Part shown: positions 35,072 to 59,330 of the stretch, piece by piece
How the letters are laid out: each line of letters begins with the position of its first letter
Position numbering within the stretch: position 1 is the stretch's first letter
Source: Desulfosporosinus sp.
Lineage (GTDB): Bacteria; Bacillota; Desulfitobacteriia; Desulfitobacteriales; Desulfitobacteriaceae
DNA length: 64,000 nt
Reading direction: 5' to 3'
Assembly (NCBI GenBank): GCA_031292095.1
Contig: JARLHU010000049.1
Location: forward strand, 1 to 64,000
The notes under the pieces: model-generated
Seen by the model: only the letters and a program-made list of their open reading frames with translations
What the model was told of the DNA's origin: nothing
The model's database searches: none
Program-made: the position numbers and the translations under genes

Positions 35072-36784
35072 TTGACTGTGACTTTAAGTATGTCACGTCG
35101 ACAACATGCTGATATGTATGGTCCAACCACAGGAGATAAAATTCGCTTAGCAGATACAGAATTATGGTTAGAGGTGGAAGATGATCTTACTCATCCGGGG
35201 GATGAAGCAAAATTTGGTGGTGGTAAGGTCATCCGCGATGGTATGGGGCAGGATCCGCAAGCGTTGGATGAGGCTATGGATTTGGTCATTACAAATGCAG
35301 TGCTTATTGATCATTGGGGCATTATAAAGGCCGACATAGGGATTAAAGAAGGACGTATTTATGGCCTAGGTCACGCCGGAAATCCCAAGACAATGGCAGG
35401 GGTTAATCTTCCCATAGGGGCAGGCACTGAGGTGATTGCCGGAGAGAACTACATCGTTACGGCAGGCGGAGTTGATAGTCACATTCACTTTATTTGTCCG
35501 CAGCAGATTGAAACGGCAATTGCCTCCGGGGTGACAACCATGTTGGGGGGCGGAACTGGCCCTGCTGCTGGAACCAATGCCACAACCTGTACACCGGGTA
35601 AATGGAATATCTATAGGATGCTACAGTCTGCAGAAGGGTTTCCGATTAATATGGGCTTTTTTGGAAAAGGGAATAACTCTTGTCCGGAACCGCTGATAGC
35701 CCAAGTTAAAGCTGGAGTCATTGGTTTGAAACTACATGAAGATTGGGGATCGACGCCGGCGGCAATCGACTGCTGCCTAAAAGTTGCAGATGACTATGAT
35801 ATTCAGGTTGCTATACATACGGATACGCTTAATGAAGCTGGCTTTGTCGAAGATACGATTGCTGCGATTGCTGGGCGTACGATCCATACGTTTCATACCG
35901 AAGGAGCCGGAGGTGGTCACGCTCCGGACATTATTAAGATCGCTTCCTTGCCCAATGTCTTACCCTCTTCAACCAATCCTACCCGGCCTTTTACGGTTAA
36001 TACGCTGGAAGAACATCTCGACATGTTAATGGTCTGCCATCATCTGGATAAACAGGTTCCTGAGGATCTGGCGTTTGCTGATTCCCGAATCCGCCCAGAA
36101 ACTATTGCGGCTGAGGATATTCTCCATGATTTAGGCGTAATCTCCATGATGTCTTCTGATTCTCAAGCAATGGGACGCGTCGGAGAAGTTATTATTAGGA
36201 CCTGGCAGACAGCGCATAAGATGAAGCTTCAGCGTGGTCCCTTGGAGACAGACGGTATAAATAATGATAATAACCGGATAAAACGTTATGTCAGTAAATA
36301 TACCATTAATCCTGCCATAACTCATGGTATTAGTCATATCGTAGGTTCGGTTGAAAAAGGTAAGTTGGCGGATCTGGTGCTCTGGAAGCCGAAGTTTTTC
36401 GGCGTAAAACCGGCGCTGGTGATCAAAGGTGGGTTTATCATGCATGCCGCGATGGGGGATGCCAATGCCTCGATTCCAACACCGCAGCCGGTTATCCAAA
36501 GGCCAATGTTTGCTGCGTTTGGTAAAGGGATTGCCGCTTGTTCAGTAACCTTTATTTCCCAAGCAGCTGATGCAGAAACGATAGCTAAAGAGTTAAAACT
36601 GAATAAACAACTGGTTCCAGTGAAGAACTGTCGTCAAATTAGTAAGGCAGACATGAAACATAACTTCGCAACCCCTCAGATTTCCGTGGATCCAGAAACC
36701 TATCAAGTAACCGCAGATGGAGAAATCCTTACTTGTGAACCAGCCGAAATCCTACCTCTGGCCCAGCGGTATTTTTTGTTTTAG
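35072..36784 (+). CDS. ureC: Urease subunit alpha
   Basis: [77 protein letters not shown]. Confidence 0.98.
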
Positions 36785-49184: not shown

Positions 49185-49213
49185 TTGTATTTCTAGAGCG
49201 ACGCGTCTATAAT
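49185..49213 (+). promoter_or_regulatory. Sigma-A-type promoter of APC copy 1
   Basis: TTGTAT - 17 nt - TATAAT; the same arrangement recurs at 54543-54571. Confidence 0.75.
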
Positions 49214-49220
49214 ACGTTTT

Positions 49221-49330
49221 AAGAGGTGCACATGATTCTTACAGATCGTCCTTGAGGTGCACGTCAGTTTACTTAGAACTATTAGCTTAAAGCAACGGCG
49301 CTTTTGATTTTTCAAAAGCGCCGTTTGTGT
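49221..49330 (+). promoter_or_regulatory. Leader element A with intrinsic terminator, copy 1
   Basis: Two AGGTGCAC motifs (GTGCAC self-complementary) then AACGGCGCTTTTGAtttTTCAAAAGCGCCGTT + T-rich (49294-49330); conserved in copy 2. Confidence 0.7.
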
Positions 49331-49384
49331 TTTTGTAAGGATGGAGGGAATGAATTTGATAAAACGAAGAGATAAAAGAAAATA

Positions 49385-49463
49385 GGGGTAAGAAACTTGG
49401 AAACGTCTTTGCGTTGCTACTGCCAGGTAAACGTGCAAAGGTTGTTAACTATAATTTTACCCC
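49385..49463 (+). ncRNA. Leader element B: structured 5'UTR RNA, copy 1
   Basis: Outer stem GGGGTAA/TTACCCC, inner stem CTTTGC/GCAAAG, conserved loop gttgctactgccaggtaaacgt; covarying pair with copy 2. Confidence 0.65.
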
Positions 49464-49548
49464 AATAATTAGTAGTTTCATTATATCGGAATATTGCGAC
49501 GATTTAAAGAGTGTCTTCGATAATCTAATTTAAAGGAGGAAAAGCCCT

Positions 49549-51051
49549 ATGTCTAATGAAGTACAAATGAAAAAAACTCTTGGTCTAACTGGTGTAACAG
49601 TCAATGCTATGGCGCTTATAGCTCCTGGAGCATTTTTATGGTTAACCTTTCAAATGCAAGCGGCTCAAGTTGACACCGCAGGGAATTCGACGGCAGGGGA
49701 TATGTTCTCTGGGTTAATATTAGCTTTGATCCTTGCTTTTCTTACTGCGATTTCGTATGCTAAGCTTGCAGAACTTTATCCGGATGCAGGCACGGGAAGT
49801 TCTTATTATTTTGCCGAACAGTCCTTTCTTAATAAAGAAATCAATATCGGCCATTTCTCTAGATTAGCCAAATTTGTCGTTGGTTGGTTCTCCCATCTTT
49901 ACTATTGGGTCTATCCAGGGGTTATGGTCGCCATGTTTGCCACGATGATCAATTATATCGCCAGTCAATTTGGAATTACTTTGTCAATTCCTGTGCAAAT
50001 ATTAATAGCCGTCGTTTTCTCGGGTATTACCGGTGCTGTTGCCTACAGAGGGATTAATGGATCCACGGTCACAGCCATCTTAATTAACGTGATTCAAATT
50101 GTTTCTCTGGTATTTGTTACGGTTTTAGCCTTAATTTATCGTACCACCAATCCGGAACATGTGGTCTTCGTGCATCCCTCAATGGTTGATGTCATTATAC
50201 CTCATAGTATGTCCGCTATTATATTTCAGGCTACCATCGCAATTTTATTGTTGGTAGGATTTGAAACGACAACGGCTTTAGGGGCGGAATCAAAATCCCC
50301 AAAACATATAAGCCGTGGGGTTATTCTATCTTTAGTGATTCAAGGTCTGATCTTTTACATTTTTGAGTATTTTGGTGCTAACGCTTGGATAAATAACTCT
50401 TATGTCGTCGATAAGCACATAGGGTTAGATGCAGCGGGTGCTTCAGGTGCTCCAATCGGGGATATGGTAAAAAACTTGGGGGATGTCTTATTACACAATT
50501 CGGGTTTTGCCTTAATGATCCTTGTAGCGTTAACTGTTGGAATCGCCATTTTCGGTACTACTTTAGCGTGTATGAATACCGGAGTTAGGGTAACGTACGC
50601 GATGTCCAAAGACAAAGAAGTTCCCAGTGCTTTAGGTATCTTACACCATCATCATGCGACTCCGCATAACGGCGTTTGGGCTATTACTATTGCTTCAGCT
50701 ATTATTGGAGGATTTGGGGTTATTTCGATTACCAATTTAACGGCTGTCACGCTGCTCTCGAATGTCGGAACGTTTATTCTTTATGGAATGACTTGCCTAA
50801 TAACACTGGTAGCCTTTTTACGTCATCCTAAACAAAACAAGTTCACACATGTTGTGATTCCGATTCTAGGTTTCCTATCAAACTTTGGAATGTTGCTGGC
50901 AATCTTTTACCTCGGTATCTTAGGTGGCGGGGCCACACGTACAGCTGCTTTAATAGCCATAATTAGTGCAATCGTGTGGACAGTTCTTGGTGTTATTTAC
51001 ATGGTTTCCAATAGCAAGGCCACTGGTCAGAGGATTGTAGCAAAAGTTTAA
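49549..51051 (+). CDS. APC-superfamily permease, copy 1
   Basis: LGLTGVTVNAMALIAPGAFLWLTFQMQ, about 12 TM-like segments, GFETTTALGAESKSPKHISRGV. Confidence 0.9.
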   Translation: MSNEVQMKKTLGLTGVTVNAMALIAPGAFLWLTFQMQAAQVDTAGNSTAGDMFSGLILALILAFLTAISYAKLAELYPDAGTGSSYYFAEQSFLNKEINIGHFSRLAKFVVGWFSHLYYWVYPGVMVAMFATMINYIASQFGITLSIPVQILIAVVFSGITGAVAYRGINGSTVTAILINVIQIVSLVFVTVLALIYRTTNPEHVVFVHPSMVDVIIPHSMSAIIFQATIAILLLVGFETTTALGAESKSPKHISRGVILSLVIQGLIFYIFEYFGANAWINNSYVVDKHIGLDAAGASGAPIGDMVKNLGDVLLHNSGFALMILVALTVGIAIFGTTLACMNTGVRVTYAMSKDKEVPSALGILHHHHATPHNGVWAITIASAIIGGFGVISITNLTAVTLLSNVGTFILYGMTCLITLVAFLRHPKQNKFTHVVIPILGFLSNFGMLLAIFYLGILGGGATRTAALIAIISAIVWTVLGVIYMVSNSKATGQRIVAKV

Positions 51052-51149: not shown

Positions 51150-51944
51150 ATGTTAACATTGAAAAATAATTCACAACCAAAACTGTATTTTAGTGTCGAC
51201 GGCAATACAGATAAGGGCCAAATTCGTCCGCGCAATGAGGACTATTTTAGTTTTTTTATTCCCCCCGATTTAGTAACAAGAGAAACATTGGGCAGCCTTA
51301 TCGTTATTTCGGATGGTGTAGGGGGGCATTTAGCGGGAGAAGTTGCCAGCGCAGAGGCCGTCAATGTTCTATTGCAAGAATACTATTTTGGTGATTACCC
51401 CAAAAAACTACCTAATCGTCTGAAAGGAGCCTTTGCTAAAGCAGCTTTGCATATTTTTGATTTATCGAAACAGCATAAGGATTTCTCGAATATGCAGTGT
51501 ACCTTAACTGCCTTGTTACTCAAGCAAGATCAATACTTTATCGCCCACGCAGGAGATACTAAAGCATTTTTACTACGTTCTAAGAACTTTATCCAATTAA
51601 CGAAGGATCATAGTTTAGTCGCCAAACTTGTGCGCATGGGTATGGTATCGCAAGAGCAAGCAAAAACACACCCTTATAAACACATGCTCATCCGAGCCTT
51701 AGGAGAGAGCCCTCTCTTACCTATCGATATTTATACAGGGACTATCCAAGTAGGAGATGTTTTCTGTCTCGTAACCGACGGGATCTTAGAACACTTAACT
51801 GAAGAGGAATTACAAATGTATCTCTTAGAGAATGATACTTTAGATAATATCCAAAAAAAGCTGATTCAAGAAGTGAATCGACGCGGTGGATGTGATAACA
51901 TGACAATATTAACTGTGAAAGTAATAGAGGATGATCAAAATTGA
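51150..51944 (+). CDS. PP2C-type protein phosphatase
   Basis: GNTDKGQIRPRNEDYFSFF; LIVISDGVGGHLAGEVASA; IAHAGDTKAFLLR; CLVTDGILEHLTEEE; GGCDNMTILTVKV. Confidence 0.93.
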   Translation: MLTLKNNSQPKLYFSVDGNTDKGQIRPRNEDYFSFFIPPDLVTRETLGSLIVISDGVGGHLAGEVASAEAVNVLLQEYYFGDYPKKLPNRLKGAFAKAALHIFDLSKQHKDFSNMQCTLTALLLKQDQYFIAHAGDTKAFLLRSKNFIQLTKDHSLVAKLVRMGMVSQEQAKTHPYKHMLIRALGESPLLPIDIYTGTIQVGDVFCLVTDGILEHLTEEELQMYLLENDTLDNIQKKLIQEVNRRGGCDNMTILTVKVIEDDQN

Positions 51945-52033: not shown

Positions 52034-52981
52034 ATGTTGGAAATCGAGAAGCCCAGAATTGAGTGTATCGAGCGTTCGGAGGATAACTCCTATGCAAAAT
52101 TCGTCGTAGAACCTCTGGAGCGGGGATATGGGGCAACTTTGGGAAATTCTCTTAGTCGCATCCTTTTATCCTTTCTGGAGGGATCGGCGGTGACATCAGT
52201 CAAAATCGAAGGGGCACCCAATGAGTTTTCTGTGATTCCGAGAGTTTTGGAAGGAGTTACTGATATTATCCGAAATTTGAAGTCCCTTGCGCTAAAGAGC
52301 TATACGGATGAACCAAGGATAATTCGCATAGAGTCTCAGGGGGGAGGGGTTGTTACAGCCGGAGATATCCTCAGCGATCCTGACATTGAGATTCTGAACT
52401 CTGATTTGAAGATTGCTACATTAGAGCAAGATGGCCGATTATTCATGGAAATGACGGTCGAACGCGGACGAGGGTGCGTCGTAGCGGACGAAAATAAGAA
52501 ACCAGTTTATAGTAGCGGAGTGATCTCGATTGATTCCATCTTTACCCCAATTTATAAGGTTAACCACTCGGTGGAGGCTATTCGAGTTGGTCAAATCACG
52601 GACTATGACAAATTAACCCTCGAAGTATGGTCTAATGGAAGTATCTCCCCGGAAGAGGCTACCAGTTTTGCAGCTAAAATTCTGAGCGGTCATCTGCGTC
52701 TTTTTACTGTGTTTACTAATAAACTCCAGGGTTTTGAGAATCTGGTGGAAAAAGCAGAAGACTCCAAGAATAAAGTTCTTAAAATCATGATTAAGGAACT
52801 TAATTTGTCCGTTCGTTCTTACAACTGTCTGAGGAGGGCGGGGATCATCACGGTGGAAGACTTAATTCAAAAGACAGAAGAGGACATGCGTAAATTACGT
52901 AACCTTGGCGGCAAGTCATTGAACGAATTAAAATTGAAGCTTAAAGATTTAGGTTTATCGTTCCGACCTGAGGGAGATTAA
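52034..52981 (+). CDS. DNA-directed RNA polymerase alpha subunit (orphan paralog)
   Basis: [63 protein letters not shown]; alpha-[51 protein letters not shown]. Confidence 0.95.
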
Positions 52982-54070: not shown

Positions 54071-54409
54071 CTAGAGGGCTGCCTCACCTTGCTCGCCAGT
54101 ACGGATACGTACCACTTCTTCTACGTTCGAAACGAATATTTTACCATCTCCAACATTACCAGTGCGTGCAGTTTTAACGAGAATCGCAATAACTTCTTGT
54201 ACTTTTTCATCAGTGGTTACGATTTCTAGTTTGATTTTAGGCAATAAATGCGTAGTGACCTCTTGCCCCCGATAAATTTGAGTATACCCTTTTTGTCGTC
54301 CGAAGCCCAAGGCATGGGTGACGGTAATACCCAAGATTTCGGCGGCAGCCAAAGCATCTTTGATTTCATCCAACTTACCCGGTCTAACAATTGCTTCAAC
54401 CTTTTTCAT
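54071..54409 (-). CDS. glnB: Nitrogen regulatory protein P-II
   Basis: MKKVEAIVRPGKLDEIKDALA; T-loop GFGRQKGYTQIYRGQEVTTHLLPKIKLEIV. Confidence 0.95.
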   Translation of the reverse strand: MKKVEAIVRPGKLDEIKDALAAAEILGITVTHALGFGRQKGYTQIYRGQEVTTHLLPKIKLEIVTTDEKVQEVIAILVKTARTGNVGDGKIFVSNVEEVVRIRTGEQGEAAL

Positions 54410-54542
54410 AGAAAATTCCCCTTTCTGTATGTGCAATCATTATACTGAATTTTGAACACGTAGGAAAGCTATTAAGGGATAAATAATAATTTGAAAATTT
54501 AAATATTATACAATATTCTTGGAAAATCAGAGATTAAAACTG

Positions 54543-54690
54543 TTGTATTTCTACAGTAACACGACTATAATACGTTTCAAGAGGTGCACATTTAGATACT
54601 TATAACGGTTCTTGAGGTGCACGTCAGTTTACTTAGAACGATTAAATTAAAGCAACGGCGCTTTTGATTTTTCAAAAGCGCCGTTTGTGT
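54543..54690 (+). promoter_or_regulatory. Promoter and leader element A with terminator, copy 2
   Basis: TTGTAT-17-TATAAT; AGGTGCAC twice; AACGGCGCTTTTGAtttTTCAAAAGCGCCGTT at 54654-54685. Confidence 0.7.
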
Positions 54691-54743
54691 TTTTGGAGAA
54701 AGGTGGGAACGAATCCAATAAAAAGAAGAGGTAAATGAAAATA

Positions 54744-54822
54744 GGGGTAAGAAACTTGGAAATATCTTTGCGTTGCTACTGCCAGGTAAACGTGCAAAGG
54801 TCATTAACAATAATTTTACCCC
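54744..54822 (+). ncRNA. Leader element B, copy 2
   Basis: GGGGTAA/TTACCCC outer stem, CTTTGC/GCAAAG inner stem, same loop as copy 1. Confidence 0.65.
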
Positions 54823-54900
54823 AATAATTAGTAACTATAGTATATCAGAATGGCGTGGCGTTTAAAAGAGCGTCTTCAACTTTGAAGGAGGGAAAGCTTT

Positions 54901-56403
54901 ATGTCTAATGAAGTACAAATGAAAAAAACTCTTGGTCTTACGGGTGTAACAGTTAATGCTATGGCGCTCATTGCTCCTGGAGCATTTTTATGGTTAACAT
55001 TTCAGATGCAATCGGCTCAAGTTGACACCGCAGGGAATTCGACGGCAGGAGATATGTTCTCTGGGTTGATCTTAGCCTTAACCTTGGCTTTTCTGACAGC
55101 AATTTCATATGCTAAACTTGCCGAAGTCTACCCAGAGGCAGGCACGGGGAGTTCCTATTATTTTGCCGAACAATCCTTTCTTAATAAAGAAATCAATATC
55201 GGCCATTTCTCTAGATTAGCCAAATTTGTCGTTGGCTGGTTCTCGCATCTATATTATTGGGTCTATCCAGGGGTTATGGTCGCTATGTTTGCCACCATGA
55301 TCAACTATATCGCCGGTCAATTTGGGATCAATTTGCCAATTCCTCTGCAAATATTAATAGCCTTCGTTTTCTCAGGTATAACAGGGGCTGTTGCCTACAG
55401 AGGAATTAATGGATCCACGGTCACAGCCATCTTAATTAATGTGATTCAAATTGTTTCTCTGGTATTTGTTACTGTCTTGGCCTTGATATATCGCACCACT
55501 AATCCAGAACATGTGGTCTTCGTGCATCCCTCAATGATTGATGTCATTACGCCCCATAGTATGTCCGCTATTATATTTCAGGCTACGATCGCGATTTTGC
55601 TGTTGGTAGGATTTGAAACGACAACAGCGTTAGGTGCGGAATCAAAATCACCTAAACATATAAGTCGTGGGGTTATTCTATCCTTAGTGATTCAAGGTCT
55701 GATCTTTTACATTTTTGAATATTTTGGTGCGAACGCTTGGTTAAATAACTCATATGTCGTCGATAAGCACATAGGGTTAGATGCGGCGGCTGCTTCAGGT
55801 GCTCCGATAGGGGATATGGTTAAAAACTTGGGGGATGTCTTATTACACAATTCGGGGTTTGCCTTAATGATCCTTGTAGCAGTAACTGTTGGAATTGCCA
55901 TTTTTGGCACAACTTTAGCGTGTATGAATACTGGAGTTAGGGTTACGTACGCGATGTCCAAGGACAAAGAAGTACCTAGTGCTTTAGGTATCCTCCATCA
56001 TCATCACGCAACTCCGCATAACGGCGTTTGGGCGATTACAATTGCTTCAGCGATTATTGGAGGCATTGGGGTTATCTCAATTAAAAATTTAACCGCGGTG
56101 ACACTGCTTTCCAATGTCGGAACATTTATTCTTTATGGGATGACCTGCCTTATTACCCTCGTAGCGTTTTTACGGCATCCTCAACACAACAAGTTTACCC
56201 ATGTCGTAATACCAATTCTAGGTTTCCTGGCAAATTTGGGAATGCTCCTAGCGGTCATTTATCTCAGTATCTTAGGTGGTGGTGACACCCGTACGGCCGC
56301 TCTAATGGCCATTGTTGCTACAGTCGTATGGACAGTTCTCGGGGTTGTTTACATGCTTTCTAATAGCAAGGCCACTGGTCAGAAGATTATCGCAAAAGCC
56401 TAA
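54901..56403 (+). CDS. APC-superfamily permease, copy 2
   Basis: Near-identical to the 49549 protein over its full 500 aa. Confidence 0.9.
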   Translation: MSNEVQMKKTLGLTGVTVNAMALIAPGAFLWLTFQMQSAQVDTAGNSTAGDMFSGLILALTLAFLTAISYAKLAEVYPEAGTGSSYYFAEQSFLNKEINIGHFSRLAKFVVGWFSHLYYWVYPGVMVAMFATMINYIAGQFGINLPIPLQILIAFVFSGITGAVAYRGINGSTVTAILINVIQIVSLVFVTVLALIYRTTNPEHVVFVHPSMIDVITPHSMSAIIFQATIAILLLVGFETTTALGAESKSPKHISRGVILSLVIQGLIFYIFEYFGANAWLNNSYVVDKHIGLDAAAASGAPIGDMVKNLGDVLLHNSGFALMILVAVTVGIAIFGTTLACMNTGVRVTYAMSKDKEVPSALGILHHHHATPHNGVWAITIASAIIGGIGVISIKNLTAVTLLSNVGTFILYGMTCLITLVAFLRHPQHNKFTHVVIPILGFLANLGMLLAVIYLSILGGGDTRTAALMAIVATVVWTVLGVVYMLSNSKATGQKIIAKA

Positions 56404-56472: not shown

Positions 56473-56574
56473 GATAATATCCGAAAAAAGCTGATTCAAG
56501 AAGTGAATCAGCGCGGTGGATGTGATAATATGACAATACTAACTGTGAAAGTAATGGAGGATGATCAAAATTGA
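56473..56574 (+). pseudogene. 3' remnant of a PP2C phosphatase gene
   Basis: DNIRKKLIQEVNQRGGCDNMTILTVKVMEDDQN* matches the C-terminus of the 51150-51944 protein; 5' part absent. Confidence 0.92.
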
Positions 56575-57548
56575 TGATTCCGGAAATTGGCGATACGTTT
56601 GAAAATCGTTACAAGCTCCTTAAACAATTAGGACAAGGCGGATTTGCCAGCGCCTTCTTAGCTGAAGACGCCTTAACGGGCGAAAAAATCGTCTTAAAAT
56701 TTCCTGATATTTCTCAATTAGGTGATCCAGCTGTTTATGAACGGTTTAGACGGGAACTGGCGATTGGAAAATTACTAAATCACCCAGATTTGCCGGTTGC
56801 CTTAACCTGTTCGGAAGGTAGCCCTCCCTATTTGGTCTTAAAATTTATCGAAGGAGAAAATCTGGCCAGCGTGTTAAAGGAAAAAGGTAGTTTTCCGGTT
56901 GACCAGGCGGTTAACCTCGTCGCCAATTTATTGGATGCTATCCACCATTGTCATGAACAAGGTGTTTTTCATCGGGATATAAAACCGGAAAACCTATTAT
57001 TAGCACCGGATGGGCACCTGAAAATATTGGACTTTGGGATCGCTCTCATGGAGGGAGGTCCAAGGGTAACCTGGCGTGGCTTTTCTGGTTTAATGGGAAC
57101 CCCAGAATACATGGCTCCAGAACAAATTAGAGGGGAACGAGGAGGAGCCCAAAGCGATATTTATTCAATTGGATGCCTATTATATCACATGTTAGCGGGC
57201 AACCCGCCCTTTACCGGAGACAACCCACTATCGATAATGCATCAACATTTAACGACGGATCCACGTCCTATTCCTGAAATTATTCCTGAAATTCAGTTGG
57301 GAATTTGGGCTGTCATTAAAAGGGCGCTACGTCGGCGCAAGGAAGAACGGTATGCTTCCGCTCTAGATATGGAAAAAGATTTGAGGCACCCGGAGAAGGT
57401 TGATCTTGAAGGGCTTAAGACGATTGATCCACCACTTGTCGCGGTTATGACTAATGAACGTACGCCTTGGCTTTTTGTGGGGGGGGCAGTTATTGTCGGG
57501 CTTATATTGGCCTTGGTGCTTGTTGGTTTATCGATATTTTTGAAATAA
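56574..57548 (+). CDS. Serine/threonine protein kinase with C-terminal TM, no PASTA repeats
   Basis: LGQGGFASAFLAEDALTGEKIVLKFP; HRDIKPENLLL; KILDFGIAL; GTPEYMAPEQIRGE; C-terminal TM helix. Confidence 0.95.
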   Translation: MIPEIGDTFENRYKLLKQLGQGGFASAFLAEDALTGEKIVLKFPDISQLGDPAVYERFRRELAIGKLLNHPDLPVALTCSEGSPPYLVLKFIEGENLASVLKEKGSFPVDQAVNLVANLLDAIHHCHEQGVFHRDIKPENLLLAPDGHLKILDFGIALMEGGPRVTWRGFSGLMGTPEYMAPEQIRGERGGAQSDIYSIGCLLYHMLAGNPPFTGDNPLSIMHQHLTTDPRPIPEIIPEIQLGIWAVIKRALRRRKEERYASALDMEKDLRHPEKVDLEGLKTIDPPLVAVMTNERTPWLFVGGAVIVGLILALVLVGLSIFLK

Positions 57549-57644: not shown

Positions 57645-57983
57645 TTAAATAACGTTTTCCCCAGTTTCTCCAGTTCGAATGCGCATAGCACTGCTAACTG
57701 GATAGGTAAATATTTTCCCATCGCCGATTTTATTAGTACGAGCATTATCGGCAATTAATTTAACCACTTCATCTACGATGTTATCAGCAACGATAACCTC
57801 AATTTTAATTTTTGGCAGGAGATTAATATCAAACTGTTCATCATTATCAACTTCGGTATACCCTTTTTGGAGGCCACAACCGATTACCTCTAAAGCGGTC
57901 ATTCCATGTATTCCGAATTTGCCTAAGGCACTCTTGACAACGTTCAATTTATTGGGTTGTAGATAAGCTTCAATTTTAGTCAA
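57645..57983 (-). CDS. P-II-family protein, atypical T-loop
   Basis: TKIEAYLQPNKLNVVKSALGKFGIHGMTALEVIGCGLQKGYTEVDNDEQFDINLLPKIKIEVIV; TTG start at 57983. Confidence 0.88.
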   Translation of the reverse strand: MTKIEAYLQPNKLNVVKSALGKFGIHGMTALEVIGCGLQKGYTEVDNDEQFDINLLPKIKIEVIVADNIVDEVVKLIADNARTNKIGDGKIFTYPVSSAMRIRTGETGENVI

Positions 57984-58211
57984 GTAGAACAGCCTCCTAA
58001 GTTTTAATAGATAACGCCTAACTCCTACAATAAATACATGGTAACAGGATATGAATATGTAGAAAAAAAAGAAAGTACAAAAGTACACTGATTTAATTAT
58101 ACCATGTTCTACATCTAAAGAAAATAAAATCAACGGAAATTTGAATAATTTTAGTGCAGTGTTAGATATGGACAATTGGGTCCGTTTAGAATATAAAGTG
58201 TTATATTCTAC

Positions 58212-58300: not shown

Positions 58301-58376
58301 GTTTTGTCAAAAATAATAGCCTTTAAGCTAGGCTGTTAAGATATAATTTAAATATAAATTGGGGAGTGTTTTTAAA

Positions 58377-59330
58377 ATGAAAGTACTAGCTTGGATCTCC
58401 GACCATCTATTACATTTCGTATTAATCGTAGGAACCTTTTCACTCGTTTTTCCTGGACCTGGTTCTTCTTTAGGATGGATCGTTACGCCTGTCCTAGCCA
58501 TCATGGTTCTCAATGTAAGTATGACGATTAAAGCAGTGGATTTTAAACAAATCAAGAAATATCCTTTTATGATTTGTTGGGGCGTATTTCTACAATTTGT
58601 TCCCATGGCTTTGTTTGCCTTATTACTAGGTAAGCTATTTTCACATTGGCCAGATCTTAGCACAGGGCAGTTACTTTTGGGTAGTCTTCCTGCCGACGTT
58701 TCGGCACCACTTATGGTTTATCTGGCTGGAGGTAGCACGGCTATAGGCACGGCAATGTTGGTGGTGGCAATGGCTCTTACCCCATTTGTTTTGCCTAATG
58801 TACTCGCTTGGTTCGGTGGAGTTGCTTTTAATATACCTGTTTCCTATCTGGTGATTGAATTAGCTGGAATTATTGTCATACCGGTAGTTTTAGGTATCTT
58901 ATTAAACTACCAATCAGCAAAGGTGCGGGAGAAGGAACAAGTTTGGTCAGGGATTGCTTCTCTTTGTTACATCGTACTCCTATTTGTTGTAGTTTCATCC
59001 AATGCCAAAGCGATAATTTCTCTCAGAATGTTTGCCTTACTTATCTTACTAGCTGAAATAGCTCTTAACCTCTTTGGATTTGCCCTAGCCTATCTTACGA
59101 AACTTATTTCCAAACAGAAAGACACCTTTCTCCCACTCTTATTCCTTGTAAGTACTAAAGAATTTGGCATCGCTTCCGCAGCGGCGGAGACAATGAAATT
59201 GAATTCCGCCTTGGTTATACCTTCGGCCTTTTACGCAGTTGTACAAATGATATCGTCACCGATTATGGTTAAGATCATTAAAAACATTCAAGCTAAGAAA
59301 TCAGATCCCTCCAGAGGAGAGCATAATTAA
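58377..59330 (+). CDS. Bile acid:sodium symporter (BASS) family transporter
   Basis: ISDHLLHFVLIVGTFSLVFPGPGSSLGWIVTPVLAIMVLNVSMT; GSLPADVSAPLMVYLAGGSTAIGTAM; STKEFGIASAAAETM. Confidence 0.85.
   Translation: MKVLAWISDHLLHFVLIVGTFSLVFPGPGSSLGWIVTPVLAIMVLNVSMTIKAVDFKQIKKYPFMICWGVFLQFVPMALFALLLGKLFSHWPDLSTGQLLLGSLPADVSAPLMVYLAGGSTAIGTAMLVVAMALTPFVLPNVLAWFGGVAFNIPVSYLVIELAGIIVIPVVLGILLNYQSAKVREKEQVWSGIASLCYIVLLFVVVSSNAKAIISLRMFALLILLAEIALNLFGFALAYLTKLISKQKDTFLPLLFLVSTKEFGIASAAAETMKLNSALVIPSAFYAVVQMISSPIMVKIIKNIQAKKSDPSRGEHN

Follow-up and report, generated by a model that had tools for sequence, protein, structure and literature searches.

Element B, a hairpin of four helices (P1 to P4) in the leader of an APC transporter gene of Desulfosporosinus sp., is a structurally conserved RNA without an Rfam family. 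The window, which is the whole stretch of 64,000 nucleotides analysed here, holds two copies: copy 1 at 49385 to 49463 (seen in the sequence, a covariance model, an alignment and folds) and copy 2 at 54744 to 54822 (sequence, covariance model and alignment). No strand is assigned to either, and copy 1 lies within both predicted transcripts. With middling confidence, we suggest from the sequence that a sense leader and an antisense RNA share element B as their stem-loop, and that the pair acts in cis on the transporter operon. The structure, both promoters, the terminator and the strict linkage to the APC gene are conserved in sequence; we infer that antisense RNA is produced, that it is repressive and by which mode it acts.

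The outer GGGGTAA...TTACCCC and inner CTTTGC/GCAAAG arms, which the earlier note had placed before both APC genes, are found exactly at these coordinates, and the 34-nt centre from CTTTGC to GCAAAG is the same in both copies, as the note had claimed for the loop. Of the two compensations that it proposed, the change from C-G to U-A holds. In register, the second (G.U to A-U) gives A.C, which pairs only with one C bulged. In a pairwise comparison of the two copies, element B is identical at 74 of 79 positions (94%) and the upstream terminator at 45 of 45. The APC coding sequences agree at 89% of all positions and at 63% of the fourfold-degenerate sites; identity is 77% in the spacer and 44% in the DNA upstream of the sense promoter. 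Since the fourfold sites, the spacer and the upstream DNA are less alike, the conservation of element B and the terminator reflects selection and not recent duplication alone. The terminator, the same in both copies including its loop, is conserved above the level of element B.

The window lies in a draft genome of 4.59 Mb (G000), and 47 genomes of its family were searched for APC homologues. Close homologues, with 74-88% identity over the matched stretches, were found in four further genomes: G009, of the same genus as the window; G012, of the same genus and with two fragments; and G001 and G002, both of one other genus. Element B is present in the leader of every one of them. In total, five genomes of one family provide seven loci (two in the window, two in G012 and one each in G009, G001 and G002), and at each locus a single element B stands before the same APC transporter gene. 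A covariance model (R1) was built from five copies, with G009 and the second G012 copy held out, and it recovered both at the orthologous position (E 3.3e-6 and 1.5e-5, respectively). Across 84 genomes of the class R1 gave no other credible element B, and neither did model R2 in a phylum-wide sample of 398 genomes. Weak matches in G037, G056, G002:C45, G012:C232, G125 and G431 (E 0.017-0.65) were judged to be noise, and no APC leader was found where the surroundings were read (the first four).

The independent recovery of the two held-out loci is stronger structural evidence than the shuffle statistic of the seven-locus alignment. In that alignment, made by hand, 90% of the cells are standard pairs, and eight pairs, distributed over P1, P2 and P3, show two-sided changes, the covariation expected in a wider alignment if selection acts on RNA structure, as the earlier note had proposed. 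The two-sided-change count was matched by 0.1% of column shuffles, a figure that overstates the case because the sequences had been aligned to fit the structure; an unfitted five-sequence alignment did not exceed its column shuffles. The proposed selection is supported by the orthologous matches of the covariance model to the held-out loci together with the compensatory changes in three helices. In the seven loci P1 and P2 vary freely in sequence, and P4 is near-invariant, with G-[CG]-UACU, a GNYN loop (UGGCC in G009) and GGYAA-N-C. As the note had also held, no known class could be assigned. Rfam 15 at the gathering threshold gave a single match in the whole window, 5_ureB_sRNA, away from element B, and when copy 1 and four homologous loci were scanned permissively against Rfam, every match fell below the threshold and none was credible for element B. 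The 5_ureB_sRNA match lies at 35233 to 35516 on the minus strand, with 71.4 bits, above the gathering score of 40.

In the window, APC copy 1 (49549 to 51051, plus strand; gene call, with an AA_permease_2 domain in the domain scan) is followed in its operon by a PP2C-type phosphatase gene (51150 to 51944, plus), and APC copy 2 (54901 to 56403, plus; gene call) by a Ser/Thr protein kinase gene (56571 to 57548, plus), phosphatase and kinase both being identified by domain scan. In G009, G001 and G002 the operon order is APC, PP2C phosphatase, Ser/Thr kinase, the genes being named by likeness to the window proteins. The window operon is therefore duplicated and split, with copy 1 retaining the phosphatase and copy 2 the kinase. 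P-II nitrogen regulatory proteins encoded on the minus strand at 54071 to 54436 and 57645 to 58175 flank the pair of APC copy 2 and kinase, and a P-II gene also adjoins the operon in G009 and G001. A membrane protein at 58359 to 59330, which by eye resembles the bile acid:Na+ symporter family, adjoins the second P-II gene, and a similar gene follows P-II in G009. A full-length paralogue of the RNA polymerase alpha subunit is encoded between the APC copies (52034 to 52981), and the alpha C-terminal domain occurs at two further loci in the same genome.

The leaders of all loci share one order: sense promoter, 5' hairpin, terminator, G-rich run, element B and a block like TATAGTATAYCA. The predicted sense promoter, TTGNNN-17-TATAAT, is found in all seven; in the window it was read from the sequence as TTGTAT-17-TATAAT on the plus strand (promoter A, 49185 to 49213 for copy 1 and 54543 to 54571 for copy 2). 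The 5' hairpin of the sense transcript lies on the plus strand at 49223 to 49265 in copy 1 (GAGGTGCAC...GTGCACGTC, from the sequence) and at 54581 to 54625 in copy 2 (sequence and fold), and the other leaders also have a 5' hairpin, with a different sequence. The direct repeat AGAGGTGCAC, or a near form of it, surrounds the hairpin in the two window copies and at the two loci of G012 and is absent in G009, G001 and G002. The scan placed the intrinsic terminator hairpin at 49294 to 49325 in copy 1, where it is usable from both sides, and at 54654 to 54685 in copy 2, where it was reported on both strands; it is conserved in the seven leaders. Transcription from the sense promoter would meet this terminator before it reaches the gene, and expression of the operon should therefore require read-through. 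Element B lies downstream of the terminator, at a distance of roughly 80-200 nt from the APC start codon.

The block 3' of element B reads as a minus-strand extended -10 (TGNTATACT) in six of the seven loci and as TATAAT in the other, a reading that the earlier note had overlooked. In copy 1 the block is CGATATAAT, with TATAAT in place of the TATACT of copy 2 and CG in place of TG, a change that would keep the promoter but not the primary sequence. TTTAAA stands 15-17 nt upstream of the minus-strand -10 in six of the seven loci. The candidate antisense promoter is thus TTTAAA-17-TATAAT in copy 1 (49480 to 49508, minus; conserved in the seven loci) and TTTAAA-16-TATACT with the TG of an extended -10 in copy 2 (54839 to 54866, minus). 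In a simple promoter scan the minus-strand site was the best near copy 1 (10/12), and the extended -10 promoter was found near copy 2. The promoter score was reached by 1-28 of 2000 shuffles in six loci and by 91 of 2000 in G009. The end of the -10 is always 13-19 nt from P1, which places the predicted antisense start 6-12 nt ahead of element B.

From the positions of promoter and terminator, the predicted antisense RNA of copy 1 spans 49287 to 49472 (186 nt, minus) and that of copy 2 spans 54647 to 54831 (185 nt, minus); across the seven loci it would measure 165-186 nt and end at the conserved terminator hairpin. The minus-strand T-tract (GCTTT) is weaker than that of the plus strand, and the scan lists a minus-strand terminator for copy 2 only. 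The G-rich run of the leader is a C-rich stretch on the minus strand in all seven loci, with a mean unpaired probability of at least 0.59 in six and 0.38 in G002; in copy 1 it is UUCCCUCC at 49343 to 49350 (GGAGGGAA on the plus strand), unpaired in the predicted fold.

The fold statistics do not tell the strands of element B apart. Averaged over the seven loci, the fold z-score is about -3.3 on the plus strand and -3.25 on the minus strand, and the SCI is 0.617 against 0.634. The held-out loci scored 38.1 and 35.9 bits with the plus-strand model and 38.8 and 38.5 bits with the minus-strand model. There are 12 G-U cells, seven of them from one invariant pair, and 11 A-C cells. Such equality is expected if both RNAs carry the hairpin; they share one stretch of DNA, and selection may therefore act on the hairpin in each of them. 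G-U pairs in the terminators of G002 and G001 favour the plus strand by eye. The earlier note had taken element B for a sense-strand leader RNA, possibly a riboswitch. Element B does lie in the APC leader, but the hairpin scores equally on both strands, and the best-conserved neighbouring signal is the minus-strand extended -10, which places element B at the antisense 5' end.

A sense/antisense arrangement would work as follows. On the plus strand, transcription from a sigma-A promoter would pass through the 5' hairpin to the intrinsic terminator, and read-through would give an APC operon leader of 310-400 nt containing element B. On the minus strand, the extended -10 promoter would start an RNA in which a C/U-rich linker joins the element B hairpin to the same terminator hairpin. 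This antisense RNA would most likely lower the expression of the transporter that it faces. It may pair with the leader, hairpin to hairpin first, with decay following; alternatively, antisense transcription may oppose the read-through polymerase (transcription interference). Direct ribosome blocking is not an obvious route, because in the window the antisense start lies 70-77 nt before the APC start codon; the predicted RNA also does not extend to the APC ribosome-binding site. Action in cis is suggested because element B is found only beside the APC gene, one per copy, and because both window copies are constrained.

A comparable RNA is ArrA, which lies antisense over the dnaA 5' UTR of Bacillus subtilis and lowers dnaA expression (PMC12112137). 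In both cases an antisense promoter lies inside the 5' UTR of the sense operon in an endospore-forming Firmicute, and the transcript faces the leader; on sequence evidence, element B shares with ArrA a conserved opposite-strand promoter inside the leader of the gene. The gene is a different one, however, and ArrA was shown in vivo, whereas the antisense RNA of element B is predicted from sequence conservation.

It is possible, at a clearly lower probability, that element B is a sense-strand cis element of the APC leader, either an orphan riboswitch or a protein-binding hairpin, with near-invariant P4 as the binding site and an effect on the translation or stability of the read-through mRNA. 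At all seven loci the same APC operon has element B in its leader, together with a sense promoter, and the core of the element is near-invariant. On the plus strand the unpaired positions of element B are rich in A (35%, with 22% U), as is usual for a structured RNA of the sense strand, and this is a point for the plus strand. Like other orphan riboswitch candidates, it is structured, conserved and upstream of a transporter gene, and since it has no Rfam match a new riboswitch class is possible. However, element B lies past the terminator and far from the start codon, and no expression platform was seen downstream of it in the seven loci, neither a conserved terminator nor a helix masking the ribosome site being tied to it. 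The conserved minus-strand promoter would also be unexplained, the fold support of the opposite strand is equal, and the distribution is narrow for an orphan riboswitch.

Several further readings were rejected. The core UACUG...AGGYAAAC partly resembles the RAT antiterminator site of BglG/LicT; no terminator overlaps element B in the scans, and CAT_RBD (PF03123), found in 4 of 14 controls, was not found in the genome (92.6% complete). By eye, a sigma-54 promoter in copy 1 (GG-N10-GC) is not retained in G001 and G002, a switching pairing between the terminator and element B is inconsistent across loci, and pairing of the loop UACU with a downstream AGUA is weak and lost from the main block of copy 1. 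A tiny open reading frame between the terminator and element B (5-11 codons, with a stop beside P1) was also judged by eye: its peptide is unconserved, some loci have lost its start codon or carry a substitute, and its spacing to the GGAGG run is inconsistent. It is better explained as the complement of the C-rich stretch.

We consider it unlikely that the minus-strand RNA is a trans-acting sRNA of the RoxS/RsaE kind, in which element B would guard the 5' end and the C-rich linker would pair with the Shine-Dalgarno sequences of several mRNAs. C-rich regions of RoxS bind Shine-Dalgarno and other G-rich sites (PMC5419742). The predicted antisense RNA is likewise short, with its own promoter and terminator, and it has accessible C-rich stretches as expected of such an sRNA. 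However, element B is tied in every case to one neighbouring gene and was never found away from it in the genomes searched, both window copies are kept although a trans regulator would be redundant, and a small duplex test on ten ribosome-binding sites found no specific target, the operon's own sites not being preferred over controls. A passive mRNA hairpin lacking a regulatory partner, such as an RNase III site or an RNA-stability element, is very improbable: the hairpin is long and irregular, in a long leader, and P1 and P2 vary freely, but the P4 core is near-invariant where drift would be expected, and the conserved antisense promoter would be unexplained.

Returning to the sense/antisense pair, we regard as a long shot its extension to an RNA that senses a ligand or pH and controls an antisense RNA directed at an APC-phosphatase-kinase operon limited to acidophilic sulfate reducers, with the sensor on the strand opposite the regulated gene. 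Element B is tied one-to-one to the APC-PP2C-kinase operon and is without an Rfam family. Compensatory changes in a conserved "leader RNA" fit equally well with an antisense RNA that has this structure as its 5' domain, and a riboswitch claim therefore calls first for a check of strand and promoters. If confirmed, element B would provide a simple sense/antisense pair to study in culturable relatives.
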